A stretch of DNA of 52,402 bases from a virus: positions 1 through 52,402 of the IMG/VR virus record IMGVR_UViG_3300029268_000024, one strand, 5' to 3'. Under the pieces are notes generated by a model. The model was not told the DNA's origin. It did no database searches and saw nothing but the letters and a program-made list of their open reading frames with translations. Each line of letters begins with the position of its first letter. Within the stretch, counting starts at the first letter, position 1. The position numbers were made by a program, and so were the translations under genes. This document shows positions 3,311 to 27,516 of the stretch, in pieces.

Positions 3311-3328
3311 GTTTTTCTTTTTTATCAA

Positions 3329-11277: not shown

Positions 11278-11589
11278 TTATACTGCAATGGCTTGTCCGC
11301 CAGTTTCTTTAGCAGATAACCAATCGTTTACAGCTTTATTAATTTGGTCTGGTGACATACCCGGTACTTCCCTCATCAGAAGATTGACTATTTCTTTTCT
11401 AATCGAAGGGCGACTATATTTATTAAAACGACCCATGCTTCCGCTACCCGTTTGATACCAATTTTCAAGCTTACTTACCACATCTTGCCCCATTTGTCCC
11501 ATAGGCGATGGATTAACATCTGCTGTTTTCGTCCACCCAGCTTTCTTTCCCATCTCTTCCCACTGAGTTTTGCTTAGTTTAATTTTCAT
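11278..11589 (-). CDS. Small tagged protein (MKIKLSKTQWEEMGKKAGW family)
   Basis: The 103-residue protein opens with the tag MKIKLSKTQWEEMGKKAGW followed by TKTA. The following sequence is unrelated to that of the other tagged proteins: a Gly/Ser linker and a small helical domain (PSIRKEIVNLLMREVPG, then a helix ending NDWLSAKE). The tag is identical in protein and DNA to that of the next gene. The tag plus variable body recalls T4 internal proteins, whose N-terminal capsid-targeting sequence is removed by the prohead protease; applying that here is inference. An AAGGAG site precedes the ATG. Body function is unknown. Confidence 0.6.
   Translation of the reverse strand: MKIKLSKTQWEEMGKKAGWTKTADVNPSPMGQMGQDVVSKLENWYQTGSGSMGRFNKYSRPSIRKEIVNLLMREVPGMSPDQINKAVNDWLSAKETGGQAIAV
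11532..11589 (-). repeat. 58-bp identical repeat encoding the N-terminal tag (copy 1)
   Basis: The first 58 nt of this gene are identical to 11856-11913. Diverged copies begin the genes at 16936-17265 and 23675-24169. Identity stops where the tag ends, so only the tag segment is duplicated or conserved. Confidence 0.85.
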
Positions 11590-11613
11590 GTTCTCCTTAT
11601 ATTTTTAAACCAC

Positions 11614-11913
11614 TTAGAAGTTTTCAACAACTTCCATGCCAGTTAATCTAGCATTTAATCTGGCATAAATATCTTTAATAAACGGCCCAAAAGCATCCCT
11701 TATTTCATCGGGAGAGGCTTTCCAAACATAAGGTACGTTTTCTAGGCGTCTAACAAGATCTTCGAGCATTTTATCCGGAGTTCCCCAATCTGGAATAATG
11801 TCCTCAATATTTTGTTTTAATGGTGGGATATTGCGATCAGTTTGTCCTGTGCGACTCCACCCAGCTTTCTTTCCCATCTCTTCCCACTGAGTTTTGCTTA
11901 GTTTAATTTTCAT
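11614..11913 (-). CDS. Small tagged protein (MKIKLSKTQWEEMGKKAGW family)
   Basis: The 99-residue protein has the same first 19 residues as its downstream neighbour and then diverges at once (SRTGQTDRN). The body is a predicted all-helical domain with alternating charge (DKMLEDLVRRLENVPYVW, then PDEIRDAFGPFIKDIYARL). No enzymatic motif is present. It is first after the portal gene and its terminator. A strong AAGGAG lies 6 nt before the ATG. By analogy it is a candidate internal or capsid-targeted protein; this rests on the shared tag and position in the head module only. Confidence 0.6.
   Translation of the reverse strand: MKIKLSKTQWEEMGKKAGWSRTGQTDRNIPPLKQNIEDIIPDWGTPDKMLEDLVRRLENVPYVWKASPDEIRDAFGPFIKDIYARLNARLTGMEVVENF
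11856..11913 (-). repeat. 58-bp identical repeat encoding the N-terminal tag (copy 2)
   Basis: Second exact copy of the tag-coding segment also present at 11532-11589. The identity includes the third codon positions. Confidence 0.85.
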
Positions 11914-11931
11914 AAATTCTCCTTAATATCA

Positions 11932-11970
11932 ACAAAAAAATAGCCACTACTATTTTCTATAGTAATGGCT
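11932..11970 (-). terminator. Intrinsic terminator after portal gene
   Basis: A hairpin (11942-11970, stem with one mismatch) is followed on the minus strand by seven or more T (11940-11934). It separates the portal gene from the tagged small-protein genes. Confidence 0.85.
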
Positions 11971-11993
11971 GAAAAACCTTTAATGAAACGCAA

Positions 11994-14900
11994 TTATTGA
12001 GGTTGAACATTTGGAGCTTCGGGCGTATCAAATGTTTTCTGGTCTTGAGCCTGTCCCGCCTGCTGCTGCAAAGATAATTTCTTCCTCATAATACTTTGAA
12101 TAACAGTACGAATTACCTGTTCCAGTTTATTATCTATCTCTACATCGGTAAACCTGAGAATCGTCCATCCTTGCTGAGCTAACTTCATATCCCTTTCTTT
12201 GTCATGAGTAATCTGTTTGCCCGAACTATGGAATATTTCACCATCAGCTTCAATACCTATTTTGATATCCGGTATCCCGAAATCAATAGAATACTCTTCA
12301 GCACCTACCCTAACCCTATATTGCGGAATTATGGTGCTCTCTATCAAACCTTCCTGTTGAGCCTTCATAAGTCGTGGAATAAGAGCCCTTTCGCATTTGG
12401 TAAAAATAACACGCCCCTTTTCATCTCTGGTTTGCCCCTGAGCATCTTTACCACCCACCCCATGAACTTCCTGCTGTTGGAAAATTTTCTTCTGCTCTGC
12501 TGCTAATCTCTCACGAGTTTTCTTCTTCAAAACTCTACCACCAAATTGATTGGGATCAGCAACTTCGGCAGTCATACTAGAAGCCTTTGCCATCGGAGGC
12601 CCACCTACTCCACCACCCACAGGAGAAGGCCCACCTCCCGGCGCACCTCCCGCACCACCCATCTCTCCCGGAGCCCCAATAGGCGGTGCTCCACCTCCAC
12701 CTAAAGGAGGTAATCCCCCGCCACCACCTCCACCACCCCCACCAAATCCACCACCTGCTGCTCCACCCTGTTGCTGACCAAATCCTTGTCCCAAAGCCAT
12801 CATTTGTAGCGCATCATATCTCTTTCTTTCTATTTCCTGATCGGGGTCTAAGTCGAAAGATTCCAATAACGTTTGAGCACTAATAACACCCTTATCATAT
12901 AACTGAATCATGAAGGTTCTATATTGCTGCTGATCACGCAGATGCATCGAACCCCACTTAATCTTTGGAATCAAATATTCTTCTTCGCCTGTTTCGGGAT
13001 TCTTATCTATAAACCCCTGTCTCTTGGATTCGGGAAGATAAATAGATTGCTCGATCCATTGGGAAATTTCCTGTCTGAAAGTTTCCAATCTCTGAATCAT
13101 GGCTTCAATACCTACAGCGGCGGAACTGAAGTTAGGCCCTTCACCGTTGAGAAGCGCATTATTAATCATCATACCGTCAAGAACTTCCTGATTAATAAAT
13201 TCAAATTCATTAGACAAAGTTAATACTCTTCCCGCAGCACCTACAAAGTCTAACTCGAAAGCATGATGGGTAATAATAGTTAAATTAGGATCTTGTGCGG
13301 TCATTGCCAATTGTGCCTGAACATCGGCTATATCGGCAGGACCAGCGGGACGTTCATCGCTACCTACTTTAACAATCTTAATAGGAACAATTAATCTTTC
13401 GGCTACAATCCACTGAGCCACCATTAATTTTGTTTTGTAAGAAAGAATCGGGAACAATCTTCTTACCATTCCAATACCGTACTTCGTATATCCACACTCC
13501 CCATATTTTAAATGGGTTACATTGCGATTATCTAAACGAATAGGTTGTCCCGAAGAAATAAGCTTAATCACTTCGGGAGATAATCTTTCGTAACCCGGAG
13601 TCTTTCTTTGAACCATATTAATCAATTCTTCATCAGGTCTAAGAGCAATAATGGCATCGGGATTAACCGGAGAAGTATAAACCTCAACATAGTCGGGATT
13701 CAATATAACCATTCTTCTTATCGTTCCGCCCTCATGATCGCAAATTTCATCTCCCAATTTTCCCGAACCTTGACAATGAGGACATTCTATCTCTAAAAAT
13801 GGGAAACAATCTCCAAGCAAATGAACCTCATGGCTGATCAATCTGCACCACTTGGGAAGCTTGAGACGTTTTTTAAATCTATCAAAATAAAGTTTAACAT
13901 CCCGGTTTCTACATTCGTGCTCCCAATCGCTCATCGGAAAATCGGAATAGAAATCAATGGCAGAAGCTACTTTGGGTTCATTAGAATTATGAACAACACA
14001 TCCATTAATGCAATATGTATGATTATTTTCTATTTCAAGATCGTAAACTTTTCCACAGTAATGTTTGTGTTGAATGTCGATAATTTTTCGATACATTTTG
14101 TTTTTTAATGCAATATATTCTCTAATTTTATGATGATGTGCCGGAGTTATATGGCTATACTTTTCACAAATACCATTGAGTTTTTCACAAGCCATCCTCC
14201 CTATTCTTATATTGCAGCTTGGAGATTCGTTTAAGATGTTCGTTTTACATATTCTGGTTTTTTGAGTGCTCCAACTAACCGAATGAGACAAATTAAGTTT
14301 TGTACAAATTACTCTTAACTGAGACGCCAAAGGTTGAGAAGATATCCTTATTTGATCTCCGAAAGTATTGGAAACACATCCGTCTCCATCCGAAATTCCA
14401 GCTATAAAGTTTAACAATTGTGATTCAGAAGCATTATTTATAAACTCGGAACATAGTTTTTTGCCAAGACAGCCATCACCAATAATAGAATAAAACAATT
14501 TTGCAATTACCACATTATGTAAAACAATATCGTAGCACTTGCCATGTCCATTTTTGTATTCTTTTGTTTTAAATCCTAATTCATCTTCAATAATTTTTCT
14601 TGCTTTTTCCCCAATCGTATTTTTCTCGTCATTAGACAATGTTATGCGTATACCCTTAGGATATTTTCTTTCATTTTTATAGTTGTACCAGTAATATGAT
14701 CCATCTGCCGCAAAAAGACCAAGAAGCCAACATACCCTATCCGAAAACATATCCGGCATAAATTTACTAGTTGGTTTTAATTCAGGAGAGATAACGCAAT
14801 CACCAATTTTGATATTTCCCACTTCGTTCCATGACTCAGTAATATCAACCTTACCAAACTTTTTAATCCTTTCTTGCTTGCGTCTTTCTGAATGAACTGT

Positions 14901-15455
14901 TTGATAGGATTTTTCCCACTCTTCTTTTTTAACAACTTTTATTTCATGCGAATTTGTAATGGAAATCTTGGTATTGCTTCCGCCAATCTTTAATTCCGAA
15001 ATATCTTCATCAATATCACGAGTATGAACCCTCATAACCCTTTGTATATTACCGTTTTCATCAATAATTCTATCTCCAACAACAATATCGCATATTTTCT
15101 TCTCTGTCCCATCCGACATAAGTACTTGGTTATCAGGGGTTAAGCAATAAAAAAATCTACTCCATTGATATTCTTCGAGCCTCTTACTTGGGATTTGCCA
15201 ATTGATCGGGGTATGAACCGGAGAAAAGAATGCAGGCTGACCGTAAACTACTCCTGCACTAGAAGCAAAGCGTGACATTCCAGAACCCCAAGAGCCCGTA
15301 TTTACAGCAGCAGTAGGGGAATAATTATGTCGGGGAACTCTTTTATAATCCGGATGTTCTTCAATGATTTGCTTACTTATTTTACTGGGATCACGGCTAC
15401 GTAGTGCTTGAAAAGTCCTAGCTAGATCAGATGTTTGAATTACGGGCTCAGCCAT
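11994..15455 (-). CDS. Portal protein with intein and C-terminal DUF559-like nuclease domain
   Basis: The 1153-residue precursor contains a portal split by a 387-residue intein (residues 104-490). Mature portal sequence resumes at SNEPKVASAIDFYSDF and includes a zinc-knuckle-like set (C558, C561, C572, H574), a beta-rich wing (about 580-740) and the helical stem/crown (about 745-885). Portal rings nucleate capsid assembly and pass DNA during packaging. After a Gly/Pro-rich linker (about 895-955) comes a restriction-endonuclease-like domain (about 1015-1125), with D1058 (IDFG), E1069 and D1071 in IEADG, H1076 and an RFTDVEI strand, as in DUF559/Vsr-like proteins. This appended nuclease is unusual. 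Start: ATG with a GGAG site; a sigma70-like promoter lies just upstream. Confidence 0.85.
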   Translation of the reverse strand: MAEPVIQTSDLARTFQALRSRDPSKISKQIIEEHPDYKRVPRHNYSPTAAVNTGSWGSGMSRFASSAGVVYGQPAFFSPVHTPINWQIPSKRLEEYQWSRFFYCLTPDNQVLMSDGTEKKICDIVVGDRIIDENGNIQRVMRVHTRDIDEDISELKIGGSNTKISITNSHEIKVVKKEEWEKSYQTVHSERRKQERIKKFGKVDITESWNEVGNIKIGDCVISPELKPTSKFMPDMFSDRVCWLLGLFAADGSYYWYNYKNERKYPKGIRITLSNDEKNTIGEKARKIIEDELGFKTKEYKNGHGKCYDIVLHNVVIAKLFYSIIGDGCLGKKLCSEFINNASESQLLNFIAGISDGDGCVSNTFGDQIRISSQPLASQLRVICTKLNLSHSVSWSTQKTRICKTNILNESPSCNIRIGRMACEKLNGICEKYSHITPAHHHKIREYIALKNKMYRKIIDIQHKHYCGKVYDLEIENNHTYCINGCVVHNSNEPKVASAIDFYSDFPMSDWEHECRNRDVKLYFDRFKKRLKLPKWCRLISHEVHLLGDCFPFLEIECPHCQGSGKLGDEICDHEGGTIRRMVILNPDYVEVYTSPVNPDAIIALRPDEELINMVQRKTPGYERLSPEVIKLISSGQPIRLDNRNVTHLKYGECGYTKYGIGMVRRLFPILSYKTKLMVAQWIVAERLIVPIKIVKVGSDERPAGPADIADVQAQLAMTAQDPNLTIITHHAFELDFVGAAGRVLTLSNEFEFINQEVLDGMMINNALLNGEGPNFSSAAVGIEAMIQRLETFRQEISQWIEQSIYLPESKRQGFIDKNPETGEEEYLIPKIKWGSMHLRDQQQYRTFMIQLYDKGVISAQTLLESFDLDPDQEIERKRYDALQMMALGQGFGQQQGGAAGGGFGGGGGGGGGGLPPLGGGGAPPIGAPGEMGGAGGAPGGGPSPVGGGVGGPPMAKASSMTAEVADPNQFGGRVLKKKTRERLAAEQKKIFQQQEVHGVGGKDAQGQTRDEKGRVIFTKCERALIPRLMKAQQEGLIESTIIPQYRVRVGAEEYSIDFGIPDIKIGIEADGEIFHSSGKQITHDKERDMKLAQQGWTILRFTDVEIDNKLEQVIRTVIQSIMRKKLSLQQQAGQAQDQKTFDTPEAPNVQPQ
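13986..15146 (-). mobile_element. Portal intein with LAGLIDADG homing endonuclease
   Basis: The insertion starts with Cys (CLTPDNQVLMSDGT, block A) and has a block B-like ITNSHEI. It contains two LAGLIDADG-type helices, LLGLFAADGS and FIAGISDGDG (blocks C and E). It ends YDLEIENNHTYCINGCVVHN with the penultimate His and final Asn, followed by Ser as the first C-extein residue. The two DOD helices with acidic residues suggest an active homing enzyme. Splicing would join RFFY to SNEPKVAS. Both boundaries were checked at codon level. Confidence 0.92.
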
Positions 15456-15478
15456 TTTACACTCCTATACATACACCC

Positions 15479-15507
15479 ATTATACAAGAAAGTGAAATTA
15501 TTGTAAA
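15479..15507 (-). promoter_or_regulatory. Sigma70-like promoter for portal gene
   Basis: On the minus strand TTTACA (15507-15502) is followed after 17 nt by TATAAT (15484-15479), inside the end of the upstream 475-residue gene and 24 nt before the portal ATG. It matches the TGTATAAT form found at other unit starts in the window. Confidence 0.75.
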
Positions 15508-16925
15508 GGAGTTTCCGCTGTAACTGGTGTAGCGTCAGTTATATTAAATCCCTGTTCTTCTGGTGATTGTAAAGCGGCTCCTGCTTTTGGACCCGCAACT
15601 TGTTCAACGGCTTCTTTAACCCCTTTAATTTGATCGTCCTCCAACCCTAAATCAATGGCGGCAGAACGAAACTCATCCGATACTCTTGCAGGTGTATTAG
15701 TATCTGAAAACATAAATTTTTCGTTGGCTACTCCGATTGCCGTAGAACTTTTAGCTACCACAAATCCGTCTCCATCAAATCGAAATTCCGTACCTCCGGG
15801 AACATTGACTACCTGTTTAGTATCGGCACTTATAACTTGGGCTCCATCCTTGGGTATAGTAACATTCTTCCCAACAAGATTTTGCGGATCTCTTAAAAGC
15901 TGTCCTATAGTAACCAATCCATCAGTATTATCGGCCTGAGTAACATGATAAGCAACTTTCTGATGTTTTTTAACCATATCCTGACCGAACTTATCAATCT
16001 GCGCAACCCCCAGAACCGAAGCTTCATAATGATCAGCAACCGCATTCAGCATGGTCTTATAATCAATTCCTGCTTCTCTCATTTCCAATGTGTCTTTCAG
16101 GATGTTATAGACTCTATCATCCTTTCTTTCGGGATCAAGTGTAGAAGCAATCTTTACTATTCTTTCAAATCCGGTAGAGGCAGCAACTTCCAGATCGTAA
16201 GTTTCATTACCCCTAGCTTCCTCTAAACGTCTTTCGGTAGAATATTGATGTGGTCTTGGTTTACGGGTTCTTTCCCCATTAGCTAGTTCCATTGAATTTC
16301 CACCAAATCTATCGGTATCGGGAACAGCGGGAGTACCGGCAGTTGGAAATCTATGGAATCGGTCATTGATATAACCGCCTACAACTTTACCATCTTTATC
16401 TTGATAGTCGGCATAAAATTTATCCATGATATACATACGCCAGAGAGCTTCTCCGCTATAGACTCTGGTAGGATCTTCGTCAAATGAAATAGCATCGGTA
16501 TAGTAATGGGTAAAATTGAAGAACTTATTTCTATCGGTTCTCCAAGGTGTCCCCTCATTGAACCCATCTACAATACGGTTCCACTTATTACGCATACCTC
16601 TGACCCATCCATTTCTTTGTCTGGATTGGGAAGGCATATCTTGAGCTTGTTTTTGCATTTTTACCCCTTCTGATTTATCTGTCTTTTTGTTCAAATTACC
16701 CGCTAATCTATGACTCGCTAGAATTCCCAGAAGAGCTTTTGGAGCCTCTTCGTTTTCAGGATGTTCAATTATTGCTTTACACGTTTCTGAAATGCTATCT
16801 TCTTGAGGAACCGTATTGGATGCTTTTTGAATAATATCCATTAACTCCTTAGTGGCAAGAGCAGCGGTTCCTTTAGAAGCAACCCATCTTTTAATATCTT
16901 CTGCGTTTTGCCAATAAGCGGCCAT
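15498..16925 (-). CDS. Hypothetical structural-region protein (475 aa)
   Basis: The 475-residue protein has no family I recognise. The first about 90 residues are helical (KELMDIIQKASNTV). A basic, aromatic segment follows (about 100-190, with WRTDRNKFFNFTHYYTDA), then an Arg-rich stretch (KPRPHQYSTERRLEEARG). A C-terminal beta domain holds VGKNVTIPKDGAQVISAD and GGTEFRFDGDGFVVAK (about 335-385), resembling small SH3-like barrels. It lies immediately upstream of the portal and downstream of a tagged small protein. Context suggests a head-neck or scaffolding partner. No signal peptide, membrane segment or catalytic motif is visible. Confidence 0.55.
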   Translation of the reverse strand: MAAYWQNAEDIKRWVASKGTAALATKELMDIIQKASNTVPQEDSISETCKAIIEHPENEEAPKALLGILASHRLAGNLNKKTDKSEGVKMQKQAQDMPSQSRQRNGWVRGMRNKWNRIVDGFNEGTPWRTDRNKFFNFTHYYTDAISFDEDPTRVYSGEALWRMYIMDKFYADYQDKDGKVVGGYINDRFHRFPTAGTPAVPDTDRFGGNSMELANGERTRKPRPHQYSTERRLEEARGNETYDLEVAASTGFERIVKIASTLDPERKDDRVYNILKDTLEMREAGIDYKTMLNAVADHYEASVLGVAQIDKFGQDMVKKHQKVAYHVTQADNTDGLVTIGQLLRDPQNLVGKNVTIPKDGAQVISADTKQVVNVPGGTEFRFDGDGFVVAKSSTAIGVANEKFMFSDTNTPARVSDEFRSAAIDLGLEDDQIKGVKEAVEQVAGPKAGAALQSPEEQGFNITDATPVTAETPLQ

Positions 16926-16935
16926 GTTTTACTCC

Positions 16936-17265
16936 TTAAACTGTTGGTTGAGTTGTGGCTGCGGGTTGAGCCGGTTGTTCCTTCTTTCCATCATATATAT
17001 CTGCCCTGTCACGCATTTTTTTAATAGTATTAGATATCCACCCTGAATCCATTCCCTGAATCCACCTTATCATAAAAGCTTCCCCGCCCCTACGACTATT
17101 AAATATTTCTACCATATTTGCAATGCCATCTTTTAAATCCTCTATTCCTTTCTTCACAATAGGATCTTCATAAATACTGGAAGGCTGTGGAACCCTTAAG
17201 CTAGTAACCCATCCAGCTTTCTTTCCCATCTCTTCCCATTGAGATTTGCTTAGTTTAATCTTCAT
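16936..17265 (-). CDS. Small tagged protein (MKIKLSKSQWEEMGKKAGW family)
   Basis: The 109-residue protein begins with the family tag, differing at one position (Ser for Thr at residue 8) from the two copies near 11.5 kb. The body is helical (DPIVKKGIEDLKDGIANMVE, then IRWIQGMDSGWISNTIKKMR) with a Pro/Ala/Thr-rich tail. No known domain was found. It sits 9 nt after the stop of the 339-residue gene and 10 nt before the 475-residue gene. The tag is about 90% identical in DNA to the other copies while the body shows no similarity, so selection on the N-terminus, or its exchange, seems likely. Confidence 0.6.
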   Translation of the reverse strand: MKIKLSKSQWEEMGKKAGWVTSLRVPQPSSIYEDPIVKKGIEDLKDGIANMVEIFNSRRGGEAFMIRWIQGMDSGWISNTIKKMRDRADIYDGKKEQPAQPAATTQPTV

Positions 17266-17274
17266 TTCTACTTC

Positions 17275-18294
17275 TTATTTCTTTAAGAGGGTTTCTATTT
17301 CGGCACCGAAATCATCCGAAATAGAACGACTAGCTGCTTTATTAGCTTTTTGCCAATCTACCTGTTCCTTGGGCCTCTGAATAGATTTCTTGTATTCCGC
17401 ATTCTTTTCAGATATCATTTCGCCAGCCGTTTTTTCAGGAATACTATCAATATCAAACTTCCCATAAACTCCACTAGATGCAGAAGGAGAACCAAGTCCC
17501 GGCTGAGCATTCATAACCTCTGTTGGGAAAACTAATCCTTTAGCTACAATATCATTCTGCTCCATGGCCTTAATCTGATCTTTTTCCCATTCTTTGTGGC
17601 TAGCTACCTTGGCCGCTTCTTTCTCCGCTTTCTCTCTTCTTAATCTTTGTCCTGAATCTTCGGTTGTGCTTTCCGCCAGTTTCTCAATTACATCAGGGGC
17701 CATAATGCTATTTTGATTCTTGGGAAGACTTGAAAGCGAATTCATAAAATAATCTTCTCCACCACGAATAGGAACAATTCCAGAATTCATTGTTGGTTCC
17801 AAGGCAAGTTTCCCTTCCGCTGTTACTTGCTGCCAATTTGCTTTCTTGATATGATCGGTATTAGATCTTGATTCAATATGGAACGGATCGCCCATAACAT
17901 TCTTTAAGGCTTCGGTTGCAGGATCTTCTTGAACAGCCGTTTGAGCGGAGGCCGTTTTAACTACCGGAGAGCTTTTTGATTCTACGGAAATGGAAGGATC
18001 AAATACTTTGAACTTTTCCAATTCCATTCCGCTAGCCAAAGCAAATTCCTTAAGATGGCTAACTACTGTTTTATCCCAAGCAGAGTTGTAATGATAAATC
18101 TTACCGTTAGAAGCGCATTCCTCTATTCTATCACATTCTTTAGCCAAAACTTCTTCTGTTACATCGGTAGAAAGATTAACTTCAGCTTCGGATTGGATAG
18201 AGGATTTTTCTTCAGGAGCCCCAGAATTCTTAGTATCCTCTACAGCATACCAAGTAGGTGCTATTTTTTCATCTGCCACTTTAAATATCTTCAT
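17275..18294 (-). CDS. Hypothetical protein, MKIFKVAD start, disordered
   Basis: The 339-residue protein is rich in Glu, Lys, Ser and Ala and largely of low predicted structure. It starts MKIFKVADEK, related in pattern to MKIIRLAQ and MKIYRIG starts elsewhere in the window. A compact part near 50-100 (NGKIYHYNSAWDKTVVSHLK) may be folded. A coiled segment, RLRREKAEKEAAKVASHKEW, lies near 218-237. KTA and KIA-like motifs recur, including VVKTASAQ. Context is the head module between Pth2 and the tagged protein; a scaffold, core or internal virion role is plausible but unproven. The ATG has an AAGGA site. Confidence 0.5.
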   Translation of the reverse strand: MKIFKVADEKIAPTWYAVEDTKNSGAPEEKSSIQSEAEVNLSTDVTEEVLAKECDRIEECASNGKIYHYNSAWDKTVVSHLKEFALASGMELEKFKVFDPSISVESKSSPVVKTASAQTAVQEDPATEALKNVMGDPFHIESRSNTDHIKKANWQQVTAEGKLALEPTMNSGIVPIRGGEDYFMNSLSSLPKNQNSIMAPDVIEKLAESTTEDSGQRLRREKAEKEAAKVASHKEWEKDQIKAMEQNDIVAKGLVFPTEVMNAQPGLGSPSASSGVYGKFDIDSIPEKTAGEMISEKNAEYKKSIQRPKEQVDWQKANKAASRSISDDFGAEIETLLKK

Positions 18295-18387
18295 ATCATA
18301 TCCTTATTTATTGATTCTGTTACAACTCTACAATTCTTTCCATATATTTGCGTATTATCCTTCTATATTCCTTCTTTTTTTAAACAA

Positions 18388-18423
18388 CAAAAAAACCCGC
18401 ATTAAATTGCTTCAATGCAGGTT
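18388..18423 (-). terminator. Intrinsic terminator after pth2
   Basis: A hairpin (18395-18422, stem about 9 bp with one mismatch) is followed on the minus strand by seven T. It lies between the Pth2 stop and the 339-residue gene. Confidence 0.85.
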
Positions 18424-18444
18424 TCCTCAAATTATGTCTATCAA

Positions 18445-18873
18445 TTACAGCAGCGGTAATTCTCCAGTTATCTTATCTATCTCATCGGAATAAGCAGGCC
18501 CAATAGCACAACAGGTTCTAGTTTTTACCCCTTTAAACTCCGTAAGTCCGGCATCCTCTATTAAAGCAACAGGAAGATTGGCATCCTTGGCTTTCTGATA
18601 AACGTCCATAAGTTCTTCTTCGGACTTGACATAGACGCATATCTTTGTAAAAAGACCACTAATCCAATCTTGTTCTGCCTGAGAAAGATTTTGAATTATA
18701 TAACTAGTAGGAGGAGTATAAAAATAACCTTTATCCAATAATACCTTCATAGAAGCATGGCAACATTGGGCTATTAATTTGCCTTGCCTTAAACCCATAG
18801 TCCCGCCTTTACCATCAGGATATTTGGTTCTAGCAACAATGACTTGTTTAACTGGTCTTACTTCATCAGGCAT
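18445..18873 (-). CDS. pth2: Peptidyl-tRNA hydrolase, Pth2 family
   Basis: The 142-residue protein matches the Pth2 fold throughout. It has a first strand KQVIVART, the helix start GLRQGKLIAQCCHASM with the conserved Lys32 and His39, and the C-terminal signature DAGLTEFKGVKTRTCCAIGP ending ITGELPLL. Pth2 enzymes release tRNA from peptidyl-tRNA that has dropped off the ribosome. They are universal in archaea and eukaryotes, and are found in some large phages. The start overlaps the upstream 75-residue gene by 16 nt. Several Cys are unusual for the family (C37, C38 and the TCCAIG pair). Length is normal for a minimal Pth2. Call is secure. Confidence 0.93.
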   Translation of the reverse strand: MPDEVRPVKQVIVARTKYPDGKGGTMGLRQGKLIAQCCHASMKVLLDKGYFYTPPTSYIIQNLSQAEQDWISGLFTKICVYVKSEEELMDVYQKAKDANLPVALIEDAGLTEFKGVKTRTCCAIGPAYSDEIDKITGELPLL

Positions 18874-19085
18874 TTTATGGGGAACCTTTCTTCAACTAAT
18901 TCTCTACTCGAATACCTGTTTGCGTATCTATACATTTTTGAGTAGCAATAAGGATATCTAATTGTATCTAGAGAACGACAGTAAGCAATCCTTTCTTCAA
19001 ATATTCTAGTTTTTATAGTGAATAAAACTAGAAGGCGATTTTTGGGATCACTCTTACGAGTAACTATTGAACCTTTTTGAATCAT
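18858..19085 (-). CDS. Small duplicated protein, copy A (75 aa)
   Basis: The 75-residue protein starts MIQKGSIVTRKSDPKNRL and ends LVEERFPIKCLMK. It is a paralogue of the adjacent 76-residue protein, with near-identical ends and a divergent middle (about 25-60). The N-terminal GSIVTRKSDP followed by a hydrophobic strand, and a central AYCRSLD strand, resemble small SH3/KOW-like beta-barrel proteins such as the DUF2158 type. That is a pattern guess. It overlaps pth2 by 16 nt and lies 3 nt after copy B, so the genes are probably co-translated. Function unknown. Confidence 0.6.
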   Translation of the reverse strand: MIQKGSIVTRKSDPKNRLLVLFTIKTRIFEERIAYCRSLDTIRYPYCYSKMYRYANRYSSRELVEERFPIKCLMK

Positions 19086-19088
19086 TTG

Positions 19089-19319
19089 TCACTTCATCAG
19101 GCATTTTATGGGAAACCTTTCTTCAACTAATTCACAATATGGATCGTATGGGAAAACTCTATCTAGATATGCCCTATTGAGATATCTACAAAAGGCTATT
19201 TTATGTACTTCTTTGCCGTTGATAAAAACATTTCTAGGAAAAGCATATCCTGTTTTAATCACAATAAGGCGACTCTTAGGATCATACTTATGAGTAACCA
19301 TTGAGCCTTTTTGAATCAC
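19089..19319 (-). CDS. Small duplicated protein, copy B (76 aa)
   Basis: The 76-residue paralogue of the preceding entry starts MIQKGSMVTHKYDPKSRL from a GTG codon that overlaps the AAA-ATPase stop as GTGA. The last 13 residues equal those of copy A. The final codons still contain, out of frame, the sequence ATGCCTGATGAAGT that forms the start of pth2 after copy A. So the duplication unit reached into the pth2 start. Central residues 25-62 differ strongly between copies, suggesting relaxed or diversifying selection. Confidence 0.6.
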   Translation of the reverse strand: MIQKGSMVTHKYDPKSRLIVIKTGYAFPRNVFINGKEVHKIAFCRYLNRAYLDRVFPYDPYCELVEERFPIKCLMK

Positions 19320-21352
19320 TTACATTCCTTAAAACCTTTGGCATTCTTGAAATCATCAGGATTATATTGTCCTTCTAATCCTTCAACTTTCTTTTCTTCC
19401 TTTTTAACGCCTCTTCTATTGAGAATAACGTATCGATCACCCAAGGCTAACTCCCCAGTAGTTTCATCTCTCATTGATCCCTGACTTTGTTCCAAAACTT
19501 CCACAAAGTTTTTAGAATCCCAAAGAAGTCCTTCCTGCCCTAGTTTCTTATAGTAATCGTGAGCCGCCATTTCAGAGATGAGCATTTCTACATCTCGAAC
19601 CGTAAATCCTTTCATGGTGCAAAGTTCTGAAATATTATCCAAGTCCAAAGAATCAATAGCTCTTTGAAGTTCTTCGGGTTTCTTAAATCCAAGAACTTTA
19701 ACTCCACGATTATCCATTCTTCTAGCAGTAGTTTTGAGAGTGGTCTTCATACTCTCAGCATCAAAGTTATCAATATCAATTACCAAGTCTGCTCTTCCTG
19801 AACGAAGCAAAGGCCCAGTAATATTCTCCTTATGATTGGTTGTTAATACCACGAAGATATTTTTTTTAGCAAATAGTTTTTCTTCTTGGGCATTCTGCAA
19901 CCATCCCATAAATTCTGATTCAACCTGTTTGTGGGCTTCGTGCATACCTTGACCCGTATCATTAGTAGCACCAATACCTCTATCATATTCATCTACTCGA
20001 ACAATGACATGAGAGGTTCCCATAATAGATTTAATAGCTTCTCTTGCCTGTCTTGGCCCTTCTCCTACCCACATACTATGAACGGCATTAATATTAAAAT
20101 CCCATACGTCGAAATCCAATAATCCTGCCAAATGAATTGGAAATGCGCTTTTCCCAACGCCGCCCTTACCATGTAGGACAAATACGTGCGGCATTCGGTT
20201 ATGAACACATTCAATTTGGTCTAGAAGTTCGCTTTCGTCTTGACCGCTTTTGACGGTTTGTTCAACCAAAGAACGAAGTCTTTTAACCTCATTGAAATCC
20301 CGCATGAGTTTTTGAACATCGAAAGTAAAATTACTAGATTCAGGGCAAATATAATCTTCCCAAGGCCTAGGTGTAAGCTGAGTTAAACCAAAGCCCTTTT
20401 CCATAAAACTACGATTGATAGCTTGTCTTAGCAATCGCATCACCCTCATACAGTCAATCTTTTTGGATTGCGGAGGATTCTCGGAACGTGAAATAGCAGC
20501 AGCCAGAGCATCTCCTGCCTCAGTATAAGTCAAGCCTGTCAATTTTCTTGAAATCTGTTCCTTCTGCCCCTTAGACAATCGGACATCGTATTTCCCATTC
20601 CTATATAGATCAACGAAACTGTCGATAATGTGGGTAGCTTCAAACTCATCTACCGGATTAATTTCAACGGTTCTAACCTTAAATGGAAGATCTAATTTCT
20701 TATTCGTTATGAGTAGCAAACGACAACCCTTTTTTGTGGTAGGATTGCGGAAGTTATCAAAAATATAAAGTGCTCTTGGATCAACTTCGCCGGGTTTTTC
20801 CTTGCAAAAATCCAAGCTATAGTCAACATTTTTAATCACCAAAAGCTTATCCTTGAATTGGGCCTTTAGAACCTCCCTACGATTAACAAAACCATCGGGC
20901 TTCCTTTTTCTTTTGCCTGTTTGCGGATCGGTTTTAAATACAGGTATTCCAAGTCCTTGATCGTCATCTTCAACTTCAAAACGGCCATAAATCAATTCAT
21001 CAATAAATTGAGTGCTATGACCTTTGCCGGGGGAGCCTTTTTGCAATTCAACAGCATCTATATCAATCGTATTATTGTATAAATCCTGCATTTTGAAACA
21101 ATCTTTAAGAAAGCCATCAACAAGGCAAGGGTCTTCGTGATTGACAACGAAATTGGTTATCCCCGTAAGAGAAAGCTTAATGGCTATAACCAGTTCTTCC
21201 TTAAGTTTCTGAAAGGTTACGCTCTGTTGAACTAAAGACTTGAAATTAATGTCGCTTGCACTATTGCCCTTATCCTGATCCTGAGGAATAGGGTTTGATA
21301 CAGGGGCAGAAACGTTATCTTGTCCCGTAATCGTAGTATTTGTATTTGCCAT
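19316..21352 (-). CDS. Ycf46-like AAA+ ATPase
   Basis: With the start at ATG 21352, which has an AGGGGA site 7 nt upstream, the protein has 678 residues; an earlier in-frame start at 21379 lacks such a site. The C-terminal AAA+ module has Walker A LHGKGGVGKS (about 393-402), Walker B VIVRVDEYDRG (D454, E455), sensor-1 LTTNH and an arginine-finger region LLRSGRADL. The N-terminal half looks like a degenerate AAA module: RLLLITNKKLDLPF, then KLTGLTYTEAGDALAAA, matching the GLTxxEaxxA signature of Ycf46-type ATPases. Ycf46-like, DUF1257 and DUF2997 genes tend to occur together, and the latter two lie 6-9 kb upstream here. Substrate unknown. A TTGAAA/TATAAT promoter precedes it. Confidence 0.82.
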   Translation of the reverse strand: MANTNTTITGQDNVSAPVSNPIPQDQDKGNSASDINFKSLVQQSVTFQKLKEELVIAIKLSLTGITNFVVNHEDPCLVDGFLKDCFKMQDLYNNTIDIDAVELQKGSPGKGHSTQFIDELIYGRFEVEDDDQGLGIPVFKTDPQTGKRKRKPDGFVNRREVLKAQFKDKLLVIKNVDYSLDFCKEKPGEVDPRALYIFDNFRNPTTKKGCRLLLITNKKLDLPFKVRTVEINPVDEFEATHIIDSFVDLYRNGKYDVRLSKGQKEQISRKLTGLTYTEAGDALAAAISRSENPPQSKKIDCMRVMRLLRQAINRSFMEKGFGLTQLTPRPWEDYICPESSNFTFDVQKLMRDFNEVKRLRSLVEQTVKSGQDESELLDQIECVHNRMPHVFVLHGKGGVGKSAFPIHLAGLLDFDVWDFNINAVHSMWVGEGPRQAREAIKSIMGTSHVIVRVDEYDRGIGATNDTGQGMHEAHKQVESEFMGWLQNAQEEKLFAKKNIFVVLTTNHKENITGPLLRSGRADLVIDIDNFDAESMKTTLKTTARRMDNRGVKVLGFKKPEELQRAIDSLDLDNISELCTMKGFTVRDVEMLISEMAAHDYYKKLGQEGLLWDSKNFVEVLEQSQGSMRDETTGELALGDRYVILNRRGVKKEEKKVEGLEGQYNPDDFKNAKGFKECK

Positions 21353-21383
21353 TATGTTTCCCCTTTGTTTAGAATTCAAAGAT

Positions 21384-21411
21384 ATTATACATCAATTAAG
21401 AATGATTTCAA
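21384..21411 (-). promoter_or_regulatory. Sigma70-like promoter for AAA+ ATPase unit
   Basis: Minus strand TTGAAA (21411-21406), 16-nt spacer and TATAAT (21389-21384), with TG immediately before TATAAT. It lies between the terminator at 21423-21464 and the ATPase ATG at 21352. Confidence 0.75.
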
Positions 21412-21422
21412 GTATTTTCGGC

Positions 21423-21464
21423 AAAAAAAAGAAAAGAATCGGGCTTTTGACTCGATTCTTTTCT
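21423..21464 (-). terminator. Intrinsic terminator after repeat-rich 292-aa gene
   Basis: A long hairpin (21430-21464, 12-bp stem AGAAAAGAATCG) is followed on the minus strand by eight T. It begins 18 nt past the stop at 21482. Confidence 0.85.
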
Positions 21465-21481
21465 AGATCTCTATGATTTAC

Positions 21482-22360
21482 TTACTTATTGTCAGCAAAC
21501 CAAATCTTGCAATATTCCGGATCGTACTTTAGTTTCTCTTTCCAGAATGTCATCAATTTGGTACGAGTGCTAGGGCTGAGCTTGCTAGTCTTAACCATAT
21601 CGTCAATTGAAGCTTCCTTATTCAGGTCGCTCTTGATAGAAGCAGCGCAAGCACCACAACTATCTCCCAAGCTGGTTTGGATAATATCTTCGCCACCAAC
21701 ATCGGGCTTTTCGCCTTCTAGTTCAACTTCAAACTCCGCTTCTTCTGGGACTCCTCCAATTCCGCCAACTCCACCATCAACAGGAATTTCGGGTGCAGGG
21801 CCAGCTTCGGGAGCCATAGGAGCTTCTATTGCACCAGAGGTTTCTCCAACAGCGGCCTTGACTTCTTCAACCGCCTGTTCAACCTTTCCCATTGCCTTAT
21901 CAACTTTCTCAACAATATCCTTGGACTTTTCAACTTTTTCCATTAGGACTTCTACGGCCTTACTTACGCCGATATCTCCGCTTGTTCCGATATCTTTGCT
22001 TGAGCCGATATCTTTGCTTGAGCCGATATCTTTGCTTGAACCGATATCTTTGCTTGAACCGATATCTTTGCTTGAGCCTGCTGAAGTTCCGCTAGTTTCT
22101 CCGCTTACTTCTGCTGAGGTTCCTGCTGAGGTTTCTGCTGAAGCTCCGCTAGTTTCGCCTTTGCTTACTTCGCTTTTGCTAGCTCCTGCCGATGTTTCAT
22201 CTTTGCTAAATTGAGCAAGAACTGTTTTGGCTGCTTCATAAAGAGCATCCTTATCGGTTTTCTGTTCCTTGGGTTCGGTAGAAGCGGTTTTGACCATTTC
22301 TACGCTTTCCTTGGGACTCCAATCAAAATCTAATTTACCTACGGGTGTTATAACTGCCAT
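21482..22360 (-). CDS. Low-complexity repeat protein with SSKDIG array (292 aa)
   Basis: The 292-residue protein begins MAVITPVGKLDFDW and includes EMVKTAST. Residues about 58-135 are almost entirely Ser, Gly, Thr, Ala, Glu and Lys, with SKGETSG-type units and five copies of GSSKDI followed by GTSGDI. A coiled coil follows (VLMEKVEKSKDIVEKVDKAM), then a Pro/Gly/Ala linker. A small C-terminal domain has SLGDSCGACAASIKSDL and a helix ending WFADNK. The SKGETS motif also occurs in the giant scaffold protein. No enzyme motif is seen. A virion, core or scaffold-associated role fits the composition, but this is inference. Start has an AAGGAG site. Confidence 0.55.
   Translation of the reverse strand: MAVITPVGKLDFDWSPKESVEMVKTASTEPKEQKTDKDALYEAAKTVLAQFSKDETSAGASKSEVSKGETSGASAETSAGTSAEVSGETSGTSAGSSKDIGSSKDIGSSKDIGSSKDIGSSKDIGTSGDIGVSKAVEVLMEKVEKSKDIVEKVDKAMGKVEQAVEEVKAAVGETSGAIEAPMAPEAGPAPEIPVDGGVGGIGGVPEEAEFEVELEGEKPDVGGEDIIQTSLGDSCGACAASIKSDLNKEASIDDMVKTSKLSPSTRTKLMTFWKEKLKYDPEYCKIWFADNK
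21971..22078 (-). repeat. Six tandem 18-bp units encoding SSKDIG
   Basis: Six consecutive 18-bp units of the form gatatctttgcttgagcc (one or two bases vary; the unit at 21971 is more diverged) encode the hexapeptide repeats of the 292-residue protein. The near identity at third codon positions points to recent expansion by slippage or unequal exchange. Confidence 0.9.
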
Positions 22361-22466
22361 TTTCGTTCTCCTTTTTTACTTGTTAGTTTTGTTACATTAC
22401 CTTGGCTGTAACGATCCAAAAAACTCTTATATCTTAATACAAATCTCTAGGCTTCTTTTCCTTCAA

Positions 22467-22688
22467 TTATTTTTGTGTACCTGCATATTTCAGAGACCAA
22501 TTTCCTCCTGCTAGAGTTTGATATTCCTCCATACATCCGAAGATAGCTGCTTGAGGCTGCATACCACCATCTACTTTTGACTTATAACAATTCATCCATG
22601 ACCGGGACATCGTTTGCGACAATCCTTTCCCATCCTCATAATATGCTTTCTTTAAAAATCTCTTTAAATTGAACACTGCTTTTTTCAT
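22467..22688 (-). CDS. Small hypothetical protein (73 aa)
   Basis: The 73-residue protein starts MKKAVFNLKRFLKKAYYEDG and has a compact Cys-containing body (SWMNCYKSKVDGGMQPQAA, IFGCMEEYQTLAGG). The spacing suggests a small helical fold, perhaps with a disulfide. The basic N-terminal helix is amphipathic. No family recognised. It lies 44 nt after the DUF192-domain gene and precedes the SSKDIG repeat gene. Confidence 0.5.
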   Translation of the reverse strand: MKKAVFNLKRFLKKAYYEDGKGLSQTMSRSWMNCYKSKVDGGMQPQAAIFGCMEEYQTLAGGNWSLKYAGTQK

Positions 22689-22732
22689 ATGACACCTACT
22701 TCTTATTGTAAAACCAAATTTCCTTCAATCAT

Positions 22733-23671
22733 TTATATTTTTCTACGTGGCATTCCTATACCTTTATTCTCTGGGGTTTTGGGTTTTCCTTTAATCGCTT
22801 TGGGTTTCTGAGACAAATCGCCCTCTAATATTTCCAAGCTCATAATTCCGCTAAAAAGCCAATTTTTAATAGTGTTTCCGGGGATATCATAACCTTTCCC
22901 TCTTATAGTCGGGGAAACATCAAAACCAACAAAATATTCTCCGTTGAGTCCATTTCTGATAGGATAACCTTCTCTTGGGACAGGATACAATTTTCTTGGA
23001 GGAAGACTTTTGCCGCTTTCACTTACATAAATTATTTCTAGAGGCAACTTATTCTGATCCGCATACTTTATTTTCTCCCTCGAATTCATGAGCAATTTAA
23101 CATCAGGCGGGACTTGTTCGGGAGTTTGTGGGGCTGCTTCTTCGGGCATTGGTTGAGTTTCTTCTGGCGGGATAGGTGGTTGTCCTTCGGGTTGACCTTC
23201 GGGTTGCCCTAATGGAGGAACATCTTTCGTTCTACCTTTGGGCCTGTCTTTTGGCTTATCCTTTAATTTGTGCTTGATTTTATCTTCGCCTTTAGGTTTT
23301 TCTACTTTTGCTTCCCTGATTGTATTACCAAATCGAGTATCAATTCCTTCGCCTGCAATTACATCTCCAACCTTGATACTATTTTTCTTAAACCAACCGT
23401 GATTGACTTCTAAGGCCATTCGACAATAATAATTGCTATCAACGGTTCTGGTGCTCCTAGGATACATCTCTTCTATTTGAAGTATGGTTCCATCATCATC
23501 TACAAAAGCTATATCTAATGGAATATAGGTGTCTTTCATCCAGAAGCGAAGTCCTTGAGGGTATGGAAATTTAAAAAGCATCCCTTCGTTTTCGGATAGG
23601 ACTTTTCTTTTCATCAAGCCTGTTTCTCTTTTTGAAGGAGTATCGGCTATTTCTATAAGTAAGTGTTTCAT
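22733..23671 (-). CDS. DUF192-domain protein with Pro-rich linker and C-terminal beta domain
   Basis: Residues 1-110 match the DUF192 (COG1430) pattern: TPSKRETGLMKRK, then EGMLFKFP, FWMKDTYIPLDIAFVD and the closing VNHGWFKKNSIKVGD. DUF192 proteins are small beta proteins of uncertain role, often exported, but no signal peptide is present here. A Lys/Pro then Gln/Pro-rich linker (about 120-195, GQPEGQPEGQPP) joins a second domain (about 205-285) with KLPLEIIYVSESGK and GEYFVGFDVS. This has a strand order reminiscent of WYL-type barrels, a weak similarity. It starts 3 nt after the stop of a tagged protein. The fusion is unusual; virion location is possible from context. Confidence 0.7.
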   Translation of the reverse strand: MKHLLIEIADTPSKRETGLMKRKVLSENEGMLFKFPYPQGLRFWMKDTYIPLDIAFVDDDGTILQIEEMYPRSTRTVDSNYYCRMALEVNHGWFKKNSIKVGDVIAGEGIDTRFGNTIREAKVEKPKGEDKIKHKLKDKPKDRPKGRTKDVPPLGQPEGQPEGQPPIPPEETQPMPEEAAPQTPEQVPPDVKLLMNSREKIKYADQNKLPLEIIYVSESGKSLPPRKLYPVPREGYPIRNGLNGEYFVGFDVSPTIRGKGYDIPGNTIKNWLFSGIMSLEILEGDLSQKPKAIKGKPKTPENKGIGMPRRKI

Positions 23672-23674
23672 GAA

Positions 23675-24169
23675 TTAATATTGAGGCGTTTGTCTATCTG
23701 GGCCATATTTATCGGAATGTCCTAGGGCTTGGTCATCGAACATTCCCATATCTCTTTGTTCAATGGCTTTTTCCTCATCATACATTTCATTACTCTGTCT
23801 GATAGCATCCCAAAAAGCTTCTGCATTTGGGAAAACTATTTTTGCAAGCTCTTCGGCTGTCATTTTTTGTCCACTTCTCACATTGGAAGCAGAAAAATTA
23901 CCCGCTGCAAACAGTTGAACATAATATTTCAAACCATTTCCATATAATGATCTTAAAGAAGTTAACAAATCTTGGTCGTTCAAAGTTCCATCATTGTAAG
24001 TTACGAGCCATGCGTTACTATTTTTTAAAGCGTCATAGTCTAAGGGCTCAATAAACTCAAATGAATCAAAATCTATAATTGCATCTCTAGAGCCAACCAG
24101 TGCAGTTTTCATCCATCCAGCTTGCTTCCCCATACTTTCCCACTGAGATTTACTGATTTTTATCTTCAT
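23675..24169 (-). CDS. Tagged protein (MKIKISKSQWESMGKQAGW family, 164 aa)
   Basis: The 164-residue protein has a diverged form of the shared tag, followed by MKTA, then a body distinct from the other family members. The body shows an alpha/beta pattern: SRDAIIDFDSFEFIEPL, then NAWLVTYNDGTLND and a helix LLTSLRSLYGNGLKYYV. An acidic, Gln-rich tail ends DRQTPQY. It is translationally coupled to the 117-residue gene (ATGA overlap). It shows that the tag occurs well away from the portal-capsid region, among accessory genes. No catalytic motif is recognised. Confidence 0.6.
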   Translation of the reverse strand: MKIKISKSQWESMGKQAGWMKTALVGSRDAIIDFDSFEFIEPLDYDALKNSNAWLVTYNDGTLNDQDLLTSLRSLYGNGLKYYVQLFAAGNFSASNVRSGQKMTAEELAKIVFPNAEAFWDAIRQSNEMYDEEKAIEQRDMGMFDDQALGHSDKYGPDRQTPQY

Positions 24170-25002: not shown

Positions 25003-27516
25003 TTATTTCACATCTTTTATCTTTTCTATTCGATACTGTTCAAAAAGTGCATCTGCCTCTTTACTTCCTTCAACTCTTACACTTTCCCTTGCAAAAATTA
25101 GCTGAGATCTAGTAAGCTTGCCACCAAATAACAACTCGGCATTTATTAAAATAGCCTTTTGTAAATCTTCCGATAGCTCCATATCATAGCGCAGTTTCAA
25201 TTTAAGGGCTCTAAGCATGATAATTGGATTCTCTTTAATAGAAACATTAGGATCTATAAATGTTTCAACTTTGTTATCTTCCATAGCCTTACCCGCAACC
25301 TTGAACGGATCTTCAACTTTATTTGTAGCAATATTAAACGCAAACATATTAATAGTAAAATCACGATTAGCCAAATCTATCAGCAATGGAGAATCGCAAC
25401 GAACCCCTTTCTTCCTAATCTCATTCATCATATCGTGTAAATCGTTTTTACCAGAAAAGTCAACTCGAATTCCCTTATGAACAAAAGAAAATACAAAGCT
25501 CTTATTGGCAAGAACATGGGCCGCATTTAGTTTTTTAGCTACCAATTGTCCTACTTTAAGGGATTTGTCTGCTGAGTTAGAAGTAAAATCCAATTGTTCA
25601 ACATCTGGCTGATCATTTCCCATCATTCTTTCTCTGGAATAAACACCGACTATGTAAATATCATCTATACCCGTAGATTTACAAACCTCCTTGGCCGCAT
25701 TTACAATTTCGCTTACCGCATTCATTCTAACATAACTGGTTCCCAATAGATCTTCTGCCATATCGGAAACTTCGCTTGACAAATCTTTGTTTTGGAATCT
25801 AGCTTCTGCACGACTAACAGACTCTTCCTCTACATCGACATCAAAGATCCAAATGGCATATATTTTTTCTCCATTTTCGGTCTCCCCAAACCTAAAGCCC
25901 TTAAATTTAATTCCATCTATGCCAAGAACCTTCTTAACTATGGGAACAATATCTTCTGTAACTATCAATCGTGTTGCCCTGATATTACCGCTTAAAATTT
26001 TATCCTTGATGGTTGCCAAAATATTTAGAATTTCTACCAGACTGGGATCTAATGTTCCCGCAAATCTTTTAGCAGGATGGGTATTAACCAAATCCTGAGT
26101 CATATCGTCCCATAATTGCGGTTTAAATCTAGGTTCAATCCATCGATAATAAAATCCCTTCAAATCATAGGTTGGATTATATCTTGGCTGTTTACTTACC
26201 CAATCATCATCTCTGGCAAAATCTTCATCCCTATCTTCCCATGCCATAACCCTATCACCAAGACCGGGTATTGTTGATCCATCAGAAATAGAAAGATTGT
26301 TATACCACCCAAATAAAGTAGCCGTTTTTATAAAGTTATTAGAGGCTTTTTTTTCTGTCCTTTTCGGCTCTGATTTCTTATAAGGTAATAAAAGTGGTTG
26401 TGGCCTTGTCTCTTCTAAAAGCGTTTCTAGAGCTTTATATCCACGATCATCTTTGTGATCTCTTTGTAGCAATTCCTCATGAATTAAATGTGGATCGGGT
26501 TTGGTGTCTCCAGCAAATTGTTTTCTTAGTTGTTCCTCGATAGTATTATGCTCTTGAGAAAGTCCTTTTGCTAAAGGTGCCATAAATTCTCGACTCAATC
26601 TTTTTTCTATGGGAGTACCTTGATGCCTCTGAAATAACATGGCCCAATCTCCCATAGCATCACTCTGATTAGCTGACCCTTTCCCCGATCTACCATCCAA
26701 ATCTGATCCTCTAGGCTTTCCATCGGTAAAATTAGAAGGGAGATAACTTGTATATTGGGCTCTTTTATACCAGTTGTTTCCATCGGCGTGTCTGGTTTGA
26801 CCTGTAAATTGAATAGGAGCAAAAGTATCTCCCAATCCTTTACCCTCAAGTTCCTGTTTATATTTCGTGTTTACTTGATCAATAGCCCATGCTGCAAATT
26901 TATTCTCTTCTCCTTGGGCTCCACCTTCATCGGCTCCTTTGGAATGTGCAGCTTCATGAATAATAGTAGCAGCAACACTTAAAACAGCTAACATTTGCCA
27001 TAAAAGTTCTGGATCGGCAACAGTTCCACCATTATTTTTTGCATCGTTTTGGATTTGGTTTGCGTTTTCCGTTGCTGCCGCCAAAGAAGCATTCATATTA
27101 ACGCCAAGAACGTGACCACCGGAAGACTCAATTTGATCCCATAGGTTTTTAATCTCTTTCTGAATTTCCTCGTTAGATTTGTTATCTTTTACGGGATAAG
27201 CGGTAAGCATTCCATTTTCATCAACCACTTTGTATCCTCTTTGTTGCTCTAGCATTTTTCTAAGTACTTCGGTTCTTTGGGCTCTTTCCAATTTGGGAAT
27301 ATAAACGCCATAAGAGCCGCTTTTAGAGTAGTTAAAAATATAGTTAATATCCTGAAGAGCCCCTCCGGGATAGGATTGTGCCAACTGAATAGCATCATTT
27401 GCTCGATTAAAAGCCGATTGAATCTCTGAAGTATTGAGTGAGGGAGTATTAAGTTTCTCAACATTGCCGGTAAAATACCCATCAAAATCCTGCTGTGCTA
27501 GTCTAATAATCTTCAT
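25003..27516 (-). CDS. HExxH metallopeptidase-like / class II nucleotidyltransferase-like fusion
   Basis: The 837-residue protein starts MKIIRLAQQ. A zinc-peptidase motif, HEAAH at 187-191, lies in a hydrophobic helix (VAATIIHEAAHSKGAD), with Glu candidates for a third ligand near 203-204. The C-terminal part (about 595-790) resembles the head of class II tRNA nucleotidyltransferases/poly(A) polymerases: VGVYSRERMMG (in place of GGxVRDxLLG), DVEQLDF (in place of DxD), HKGIRVDFSG, the diagnostic LANRDFTINMFAFN, VEDPFKVAGK, and NPIIMLRALKLKLRY. The catalytic motifs depart from consensus, so activity is uncertain. The middle (about 260-590) is unassigned. This combination is not one I know. It is the last gene before the DUF2997 unit's terminator. 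Confidence 0.65.
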   Translation of the reverse strand: MKIIRLAQQDFDGYFTGNVEKLNTPSLNTSEIQSAFNRANDAIQLAQSYPGGALQDINYIFNYSKSGSYGVYIPKLERAQRTEVLRKMLEQQRGYKVVDENGMLTAYPVKDNKSNEEIQKEIKNLWDQIESSGGHVLGVNMNASLAAATENANQIQNDAKNNGGTVADPELLWQMLAVLSVAATIIHEAAHSKGADEGGAQGEENKFAAWAIDQVNTKYKQELEGKGLGDTFAPIQFTGQTRHADGNNWYKRAQYTSYLPSNFTDGKPRGSDLDGRSGKGSANQSDAMGDWAMLFQRHQGTPIEKRLSREFMAPLAKGLSQEHNTIEEQLRKQFAGDTKPDPHLIHEELLQRDHKDDRGYKALETLLEETRPQPLLLPYKKSEPKRTEKKASNNFIKTATLFGWYNNLSISDGSTIPGLGDRVMAWEDRDEDFARDDDWVSKQPRYNPTYDLKGFYYRWIEPRFKPQLWDDMTQDLVNTHPAKRFAGTLDPSLVEILNILATIKDKILSGNIRATRLIVTEDIVPIVKKVLGIDGIKFKGFRFGETENGEKIYAIWIFDVDVEEESVSRAEARFQNKDLSSEVSDMAEDLLGTSYVRMNAVSEIVNAAKEVCKSTGIDDIYIVGVYSRERMMGNDQPDVEQLDFTSNSADKSLKVGQLVAKKLNAAHVLANKSFVFSFVHKGIRVDFSGKNDLHDMMNEIRKKGVRCDSPLLIDLANRDFTINMFAFNIATNKVEDPFKVAGKAMEDNKVETFIDPNVSIKENPIIMLRALKLKLRYDMELSEDLQKAILINAELLFGGKLTRSQLIFARESVRVEGSKEADALFEQYRIEKIKDVK

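Follow-up and report, generated by a model that had tools for sequence, protein, structure and literature searches.

A short N-terminal peptide on unrelated proteins of a phage G-like megaphage, a candidate capsid-targeting leader

Results

Gene content of the locus

The window, by which we mean the whole stretch of 52,402 nucleotides that was analysed (IMG/VR record IMGVR_UViG_3300029268_000024), carries genes for a major capsid protein (MCP), a protease-like fusion protein and a portal, together with four genes that open with a common N-terminal peptide (the tag) and several that open with other leaders. The features of interest are as follows, with an arrow marking a position after K/R-x-A.

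209..670, minus strand: 153-residue protein, MKIYRIG leader; ADP-ribosyltransferase-like by eye only
1584..2450, minus strand: MCP, relative of phage G gp27; without clear leader
3329..8977, minus strand: 1882-residue ORF with a prohead-protease-like N-domain and a long K-x-A-rich tail; candidate processing enzyme and core/scaffold
8300..8821, minus strand: protease-like domain (residues 53–226) with NHDN (His97), VSMG (Ser148) and ELSAVVDPA
8888..8896, minus strand: RTA within KIVRTAAG, the conserved [KR]xA of the arm that precedes the protease domain; putative site of self-cleavage
11533..11589, minus strand: tag copy 1 (MKIKLSKTQWEEMGKKAGW) of ORF 11278–11589; TKTA follows
11857..11913, minus strand: tag copy 2 of ORF 11614–11913, DNA-identical to copy 1; SRTG follows
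11994..15455, minus strand: portal protein with intein; SRFA↓SS at 15264–15272 fits K/R-x-A
17209..17265, minus strand: tag copy 3 (MKIKLSKSQWEEMGKKAGW) of ORF 16936–17265; VTSL follows, without K-x-A past GW
17275..18294, minus strand: 339-residue protein, MKIFKVA leader (MKIxRxA class)
21482..22360, minus strand: 292-residue protein, internal VKTAS (KTA at 22283–22291)
22467..22688, minus strand: 73-residue protein, FNLKRFLKKA leader (FNLKKxA class)
24113..24169, minus strand: tag copy 4 (MKIKISKSQWESMGKQAGW) of ORF 23675–24169; MKTA follows; helix modelled at residues 7–17
25003..27516, minus strand: 837-residue protein (polyA-polymerase-like region), MKIIRLA leader
30554..31912, minus strand: 452-residue protein, MSKFNLSKTA leader from an inner ATG at 31894
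43251..43952, plus strand: protein with MHNWYKLA leader (MNWYKxA class)

The MCP is 55% identical to gp27 of Bacillus phage G and 91–97% identical to the MCP of five tag-bearing records, and no clear propeptide was found on it. MCP, portal and protease are homologous to those of phage G and stand in the same order, and on these grounds we assign the source of the window to the Bacillus phage G-like megaphages, as a relative that need not belong to the same genus. Gene order from TerL to MCP is common to the window and five relatives (G003, G004, G005, G009 and G014). The slots taken by tagged genes vary between relatives: beside the portal, between the 475- and 339-residue genes, beside DUF192, before the 837-residue gene or just beyond the MCP. 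Some tagged genes in relatives sit outside the head block altogether, and position within it is therefore not used here as proof of head function.

Several other features of the window were recorded. The portal intein comprises a LAGLIDADG domain and a C-terminal MTES_1575/DUF559-type nuclease domain. The ribonucleotide reductase large subunit (37216–41350) is encoded by two ORFs, the second half opening with an apparent C-terminal intein piece; between the halves lies ORF 38912–39907, homing-endonuclease-like by eye, an arrangement suggestive of gene fracture with a split intein. ORF 49221–50411 is TnpB-like by eye and 84% identical to one in G002, possibly in an unrelated part of that record. 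Two adjoining small ORFs at 18858–19319 form an apparent tandem duplication (MIQKGSxVTxKxDPKxRLxV ... LVEERFPIKCLMK).

Tag copies in the window

The consensus of the window tags is MKIK[LI]SKxQWExMGKxAGW. The preliminary description had reported four genes that share such a start and then diverge; all four ORFs (11278, 11614, 16936 and 23675, each on the minus strand) were present with their tag peptides located, and no similarity was found between any two of their bodies past the tag. The 23675 copy reads MKIKISK, which makes position 5 either L or I. The reported identity of two copies over 58 nt was likewise recovered, for 11278 and 11614: it spans the 57-nt tag and one further base, starting at the ATG and with codon 19 as its last codon, while the 60 nt 5′ of the two tags match at 15 positions, which is chance level. 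Relative to the first copy, the copy starting at 17265 carries three synonymous and one non-synonymous codon differences, and that starting at 24169 carries five and four. The predicted GW-KTA boundary held for only half of the copies, being present in 11278 (TKTA) and 23675 (MKTA) and replaced in 11614 (SRTG) and 16936 (VTSL). Starts of the form MKI[YFI][RK], also pointed out previously, occur at 1–212, 209–670, 17275–18294 and 25003–27516; judged by their sequences they belong to a separate leader type and not to the same tag. A Nudix-like protein of the window (667–1176) starts MVKIYRF.

Recurrence of the tag in other phages

A search of the rest of the genome and of related phages had been proposed. 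In the record it returned exactly four copies (E 1e-9 to 4e-8); beyond it, the tag recurs in uncultivated phages. Other phages were searched with a degenerate DNA pattern for W-x-x-[IM]-G-x-x-[AST]-G-W, and a profile built from 37 tags was run over 18 records. Each of the 18 holds one to seven copies, a figure that is not a prevalence because the records were picked for matching the pattern; among 50 further records selected solely as protease-bearing, seven carry the tag. About 55 ORFs in the 18 records are tagged; in nearly every one the tag starts at residue 1, a few having an internal or C-terminal copy instead, and six tagged genes are consecutive in G014 (22255–24396). A long form has an extra first module, MK[IL][VI]KTA[SN]GK-xIK[IM]SKxEWxxIGKKAGWxKKA. 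Prokaryotic genomes (257 Gb), searched with the same kind of pattern, gave only six unrelated, internal, chance-level matches, and annotated phage isolates gave none, four Erwinia phage matches at E 6 being noise. A large class of matches, marked by EWRKIGVESGW inside the protein, was judged to be an unrelated conserved protein and not counted. Because many other phage records carry the tag, a chance origin is excluded: it is a portable front label common to dozens of unrelated proteins in very large, mostly uncultured phages.

Modularity, selection and cargo

After removal of the tag, 55 bodies fell into 49 families. Across all within-genome pairs, pS in the tag is 0.67 and pN 0.22, a ratio of 0.32 (0.15 for the window tags only); in the 18 body codons directly past the tag, pN/pS is 1.00. 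These values point to purifying selection acting on the tag only, with the peptide kept and the DNA not. An AF2 model of the 164-residue protein shows a confident isolated helix at residues 7–17, which corresponds to the most conserved part of the tag, and a separate, poorly modelled body. We accordingly describe the tag, from its sequences, as a peptide-level module placed on unrelated bodies. A promoter or ribosome-binding-site cassette was ruled out by homology that runs from the ATG onward and by near-saturated synonymous sites.

Tagged bodies measure about 30–550 residues, and most lack a recognised family. Those with one include a Zn-ribbon-like protein, a peptidase-like protein and a glucose-6-phosphate dehydrogenase; one C-terminally tagged protein matches GHKL-type ATPases, and a 570-residue tagged protein gave sub-threshold ArdC/SprT-like matches. 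The phage-encoded glucose-6-phosphate dehydrogenase (L218; G015 122798–123955) bears an N-terminal extension as a weak match to the tag (E 1e-4), its domains beginning at residue 39. Several leader-bearing proteins appear ADP-ribosyltransferase-like by eye (YHGTSS, GxYYFSP), an assignment that Pfam does not confirm, and no relatives were found of the tagged body of this kind in G001. In a few cases different phages carry truly orthologous tagged bodies (G005/G007, G015/G016). The small number of bodies common to different phages includes a small Cys motif, CWxGYKxxGxKxxxGKxVPNCV, which lies past the tag in G010 (24159 onward), G011 (44311–44475), G016 (6040–6525) and L226.

A likely prohead-type protease fused to a long tail

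The preliminary description spoke of a phage with a prohead protease. A predicted one is indeed encoded, best placed in the N-domain of ORF 3329–8977 and not in the ClpP-like ORF 47488; the latter is head-maturation-protease-like by PHROGs, yet is encoded on the plus strand, away from the head block, and fits less well. The N-domain matches PHROG 18299 (head maturation protease) at 2.8e-18 and Pfam S78_2 at sub-threshold level only, and is homologous to phage G gp19, both genes being located between portal and MCP. The family keeps an invariant His (NHDN) and Ser (VSMG) and a conserved ELSxVVxPA. The six best PDB matches of the AF2 model of the protease domain (pLDDT 90) are herpesvirus assemblins, at a distant level of similarity (E 2.7e-3, TM-score ~0.35). 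Sequence match, conserved residues, the weakly matched assemblin-type fold and gene position together make the N-domain of ORF 3329–8977 the likely prohead protease. In G004, the frame of the protease-fusion gene (1885–8922, L182) leaves the family at VSMG and enters sequence that is intein-like by eye.

A K/R-x-A motif in leaders, head proteins and the protease arm

The arm preceding the protease domain is poorly conserved apart from [KR]xA[S]. Among 49 dereplicated arms, [KR]xAS is present in 34 against 2.6 expected and [ILVM][KR]xAS in 28 against 0.5 expected (maximum 4 in 500 shuffles); since the arms are homologous, these counts mean that the motif is kept while the segment around it drifts, and do not indicate independent gains. 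The motif lies mostly 32–39 residues ahead of the NxNGD motif. The arms show no excess of LxE or IxE, and K-x-A is over-represented in the remainder of the fusion protein too.

Many tags close with K-x-A (GWMKKA↓Q), as does their first module (VKTA↓S): among 56 tags, K-x-A lies at most six residues past GW in 32 and inside GKxAGW in 36. Three further leader classes end in K-x-A, namely MNWYKxA (32 proteins), MKIxRxA (36) and FNLKKxA (13), counts that are approximate because the gene caller misplaces some starts (e.g. 16936, 25003) and in which a few proteins fall in two classes. Together with the W-GxAGW tag, these classes bring the leader types to at least four. In a family of 140-residue proteins the leaders are variable, ranging from MIKIAA to MSNLVYNLNKVAG, and most have K-x-A or K-x-S adjoining the conserved IKDRxIxW body; portals have [KR]xA ahead of their conserved start. 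Among 1169 untagged proteins of these phages, hKxA occurs at residues 2–21 in 97 cases against 27.8 expected (3.5-fold) and deeper in the proteins at mostly 0.9–2.1-fold. Protease-bearing loci show 3.9–4.9-fold enrichment, largely through inclusion of the proteases themselves; the N-terminal value is 1.0 in 103 unrelated contigs and only 1.3 in phage G and a 548-kb relative, of which phage G has an MKRLxKKA leader class. K/R-x-A is a candidate processing motif that recurs in most tags, in the remaining leader types, in several head proteins and in the arm of the protease.

Discussion

We consider it likely that the tag is a capsid-targeting-like leader, and that tagged cargo would be packaged, trimmed after K/R-x-A and ejected with the DNA. 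As in T4-type capsid targeting, a short N-terminal peptide is common to otherwise unrelated proteins, and a prohead protease is predicted in the same genome by homology and fold. K/R-x-A, found in leaders and protease arm alike, may mark leader removal, at a site that is not uniform. The capsid-targeting logic of the preliminary description is supported and widened by recurrence in many related phages, the tag-only purifying selection, the unrelated bodies, the predicted protease and the candidate K/R-x-A motif, and needs amendment in that the tag is not the sole leader of these phages. Possibly, the short helix (SKxxWxxMG) docks onto the prohead core, for which the long tail of the fusion protein is one candidate, and assembly of the shell encloses the tagged proteins. 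Cleavage by the protease after K/R-x-A, in the leaders as well as in its own arm and further head proteins, may then release cargo within the head that could leave with the DNA and act early in infection. The tendency of the MNWYKxA, MKIxRxA, FNLKKxA and W-GxAGW types to share a K/R-x-A ending would fit such a scheme, and leaders are probably processed after this motif. The main doubt comes from the two of the four window tags that lack K-x-A directly past GW: for some tags, other cut sites (GKKA↓G or elsewhere), or no cut, are possible. Also weighing against the reading are the tagged genes of relatives outside the head block, the presence of the tag in only 7 of the 50 further protease-bearing records, the 1.3-fold enrichment in phage G and the 548-kb relative, the MCP with its lack of a clear propeptide, and the internal or C-terminal tag copies.

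The same two exceptional copies would be expected if the tag were an uncleaved peptide docking onto a head component such as scaffold, portal or shell, with K-x-A coincidental in a basic amphipathic motif, and the helix being the best conserved part of the tag also suits this reading. It is nevertheless unlikely, as it must contend with K/R-x-A standing far above shuffles in independent leader classes and the protease arm, and with the lack of any such excess in unrelated contigs. Somewhat less probable again is an address for another site in the infected cell (a phage-made compartment, a membrane or a host complex): it accommodates the tagged genes that relatives carry outside the head block, but leaves K/R-x-A in head proteins and the protease arm unexplained. 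We give very little credence to a mobile or duplicated 5′ cassette copied by recombination with a functionless peptide; the 58-nt identity and the run of six tagged genes in G014 are what it would produce, yet homology is absent upstream of the tag, and retention of the peptide while synonymous sites near saturation, as seen in pN/pS, contradicts it. Least credible is a tag forming part of one conserved globular domain, which the preliminary description had held to count against its own reading: the few orthologous bodies conform to it, but the number of unrelated body families, their range of sizes and the separate modelling of tag and body rule it out.

Extending the capsid-targeting reading, we tentatively suggest, at somewhat less than even confidence, that phage G-like megaphages use at least four interchangeable leaders closed by K/R-x-A to load dozens of rapidly replaced, effector-like proteins, which an assemblin-like protease with a giant scaffold-like tail would trim before injection. 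If true, genome sequence would suffice to predict, by a K/R-x-A-terminated leader, which of the hundreds of uncharacterised proteins in these phages are carried in the virion and injected; these would be candidates for counter-defence and host takeover. The leader could also serve to package proteins into very large capsids, and T4-style cargo tagging would have a second form without recognisable sequence relation to the first.

Comparison with known systems

In T4, the internal proteins and Alt carry common short leaders cut by gp21, which itself has a match to its own cleavage motif near its N-terminus (PMC9026906, PMC7411985). The proposed system resembles the T4 capsid-targeting sequence (CTS) of IPI, IPII, IPIII and Alt in having a short N-terminal leader on unrelated mature parts and its own predicted prohead protease, and resembles gp21 in the motif match near the protease N-terminus, as in the arm of ORF 3329–8977. 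It differs in a longer tag with an invariant W-G-GW core, a K/R-x-A motif and several leader types per phage; the tag consensus contains no LxE/IxE-type motif, and homology to the T4 CTS was not found. Some long proteins (G007 16282–18657, G016 6040–6525, G009 33842–36220) bear a tag or leader copy at their C-terminal end or close to it, which recalls the C-terminal processing of T4 Alt.

Herpesvirus assemblins, the best structural match of the protease domain, are likewise fused to a long downstream region and cut after Ala before Ser, although the relation is very distant (~10% identity at the TM-score given above); we know of no comparable cargo tagging with an assemblin. SPN3US and phiKZ are large phages with many head proteins, several bearing N-terminal propeptides, and one morphogenetic protease (PMC7411985, PMC10052503). 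Their propeptides differ in reaching 111–130 residues with a T4-like motif, and no short tag extends across unrelated proteins.

Phage G differs in lacking the W-GxAGW tag and in that gp19 is a separate 300-residue protein with no long fused tail; no published cleavage motif for phage G was found in the literature consulted. Virion mass spectrometry of phage G has been published. The likeness lies in its homologous portal (gp14), protease domain (gp19) and MCP (gp27), in their shared order, and in the MKRLxKKA leader class, which with variants is found on several phage G proteins (e.g. 81748–82587, 163172–163849 and 178671–179204), some of the proteins so led having YHGTSS, YHHTSS or FHTTSS motifs. 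Phage G is cultivated, and offers a testable laboratory system.
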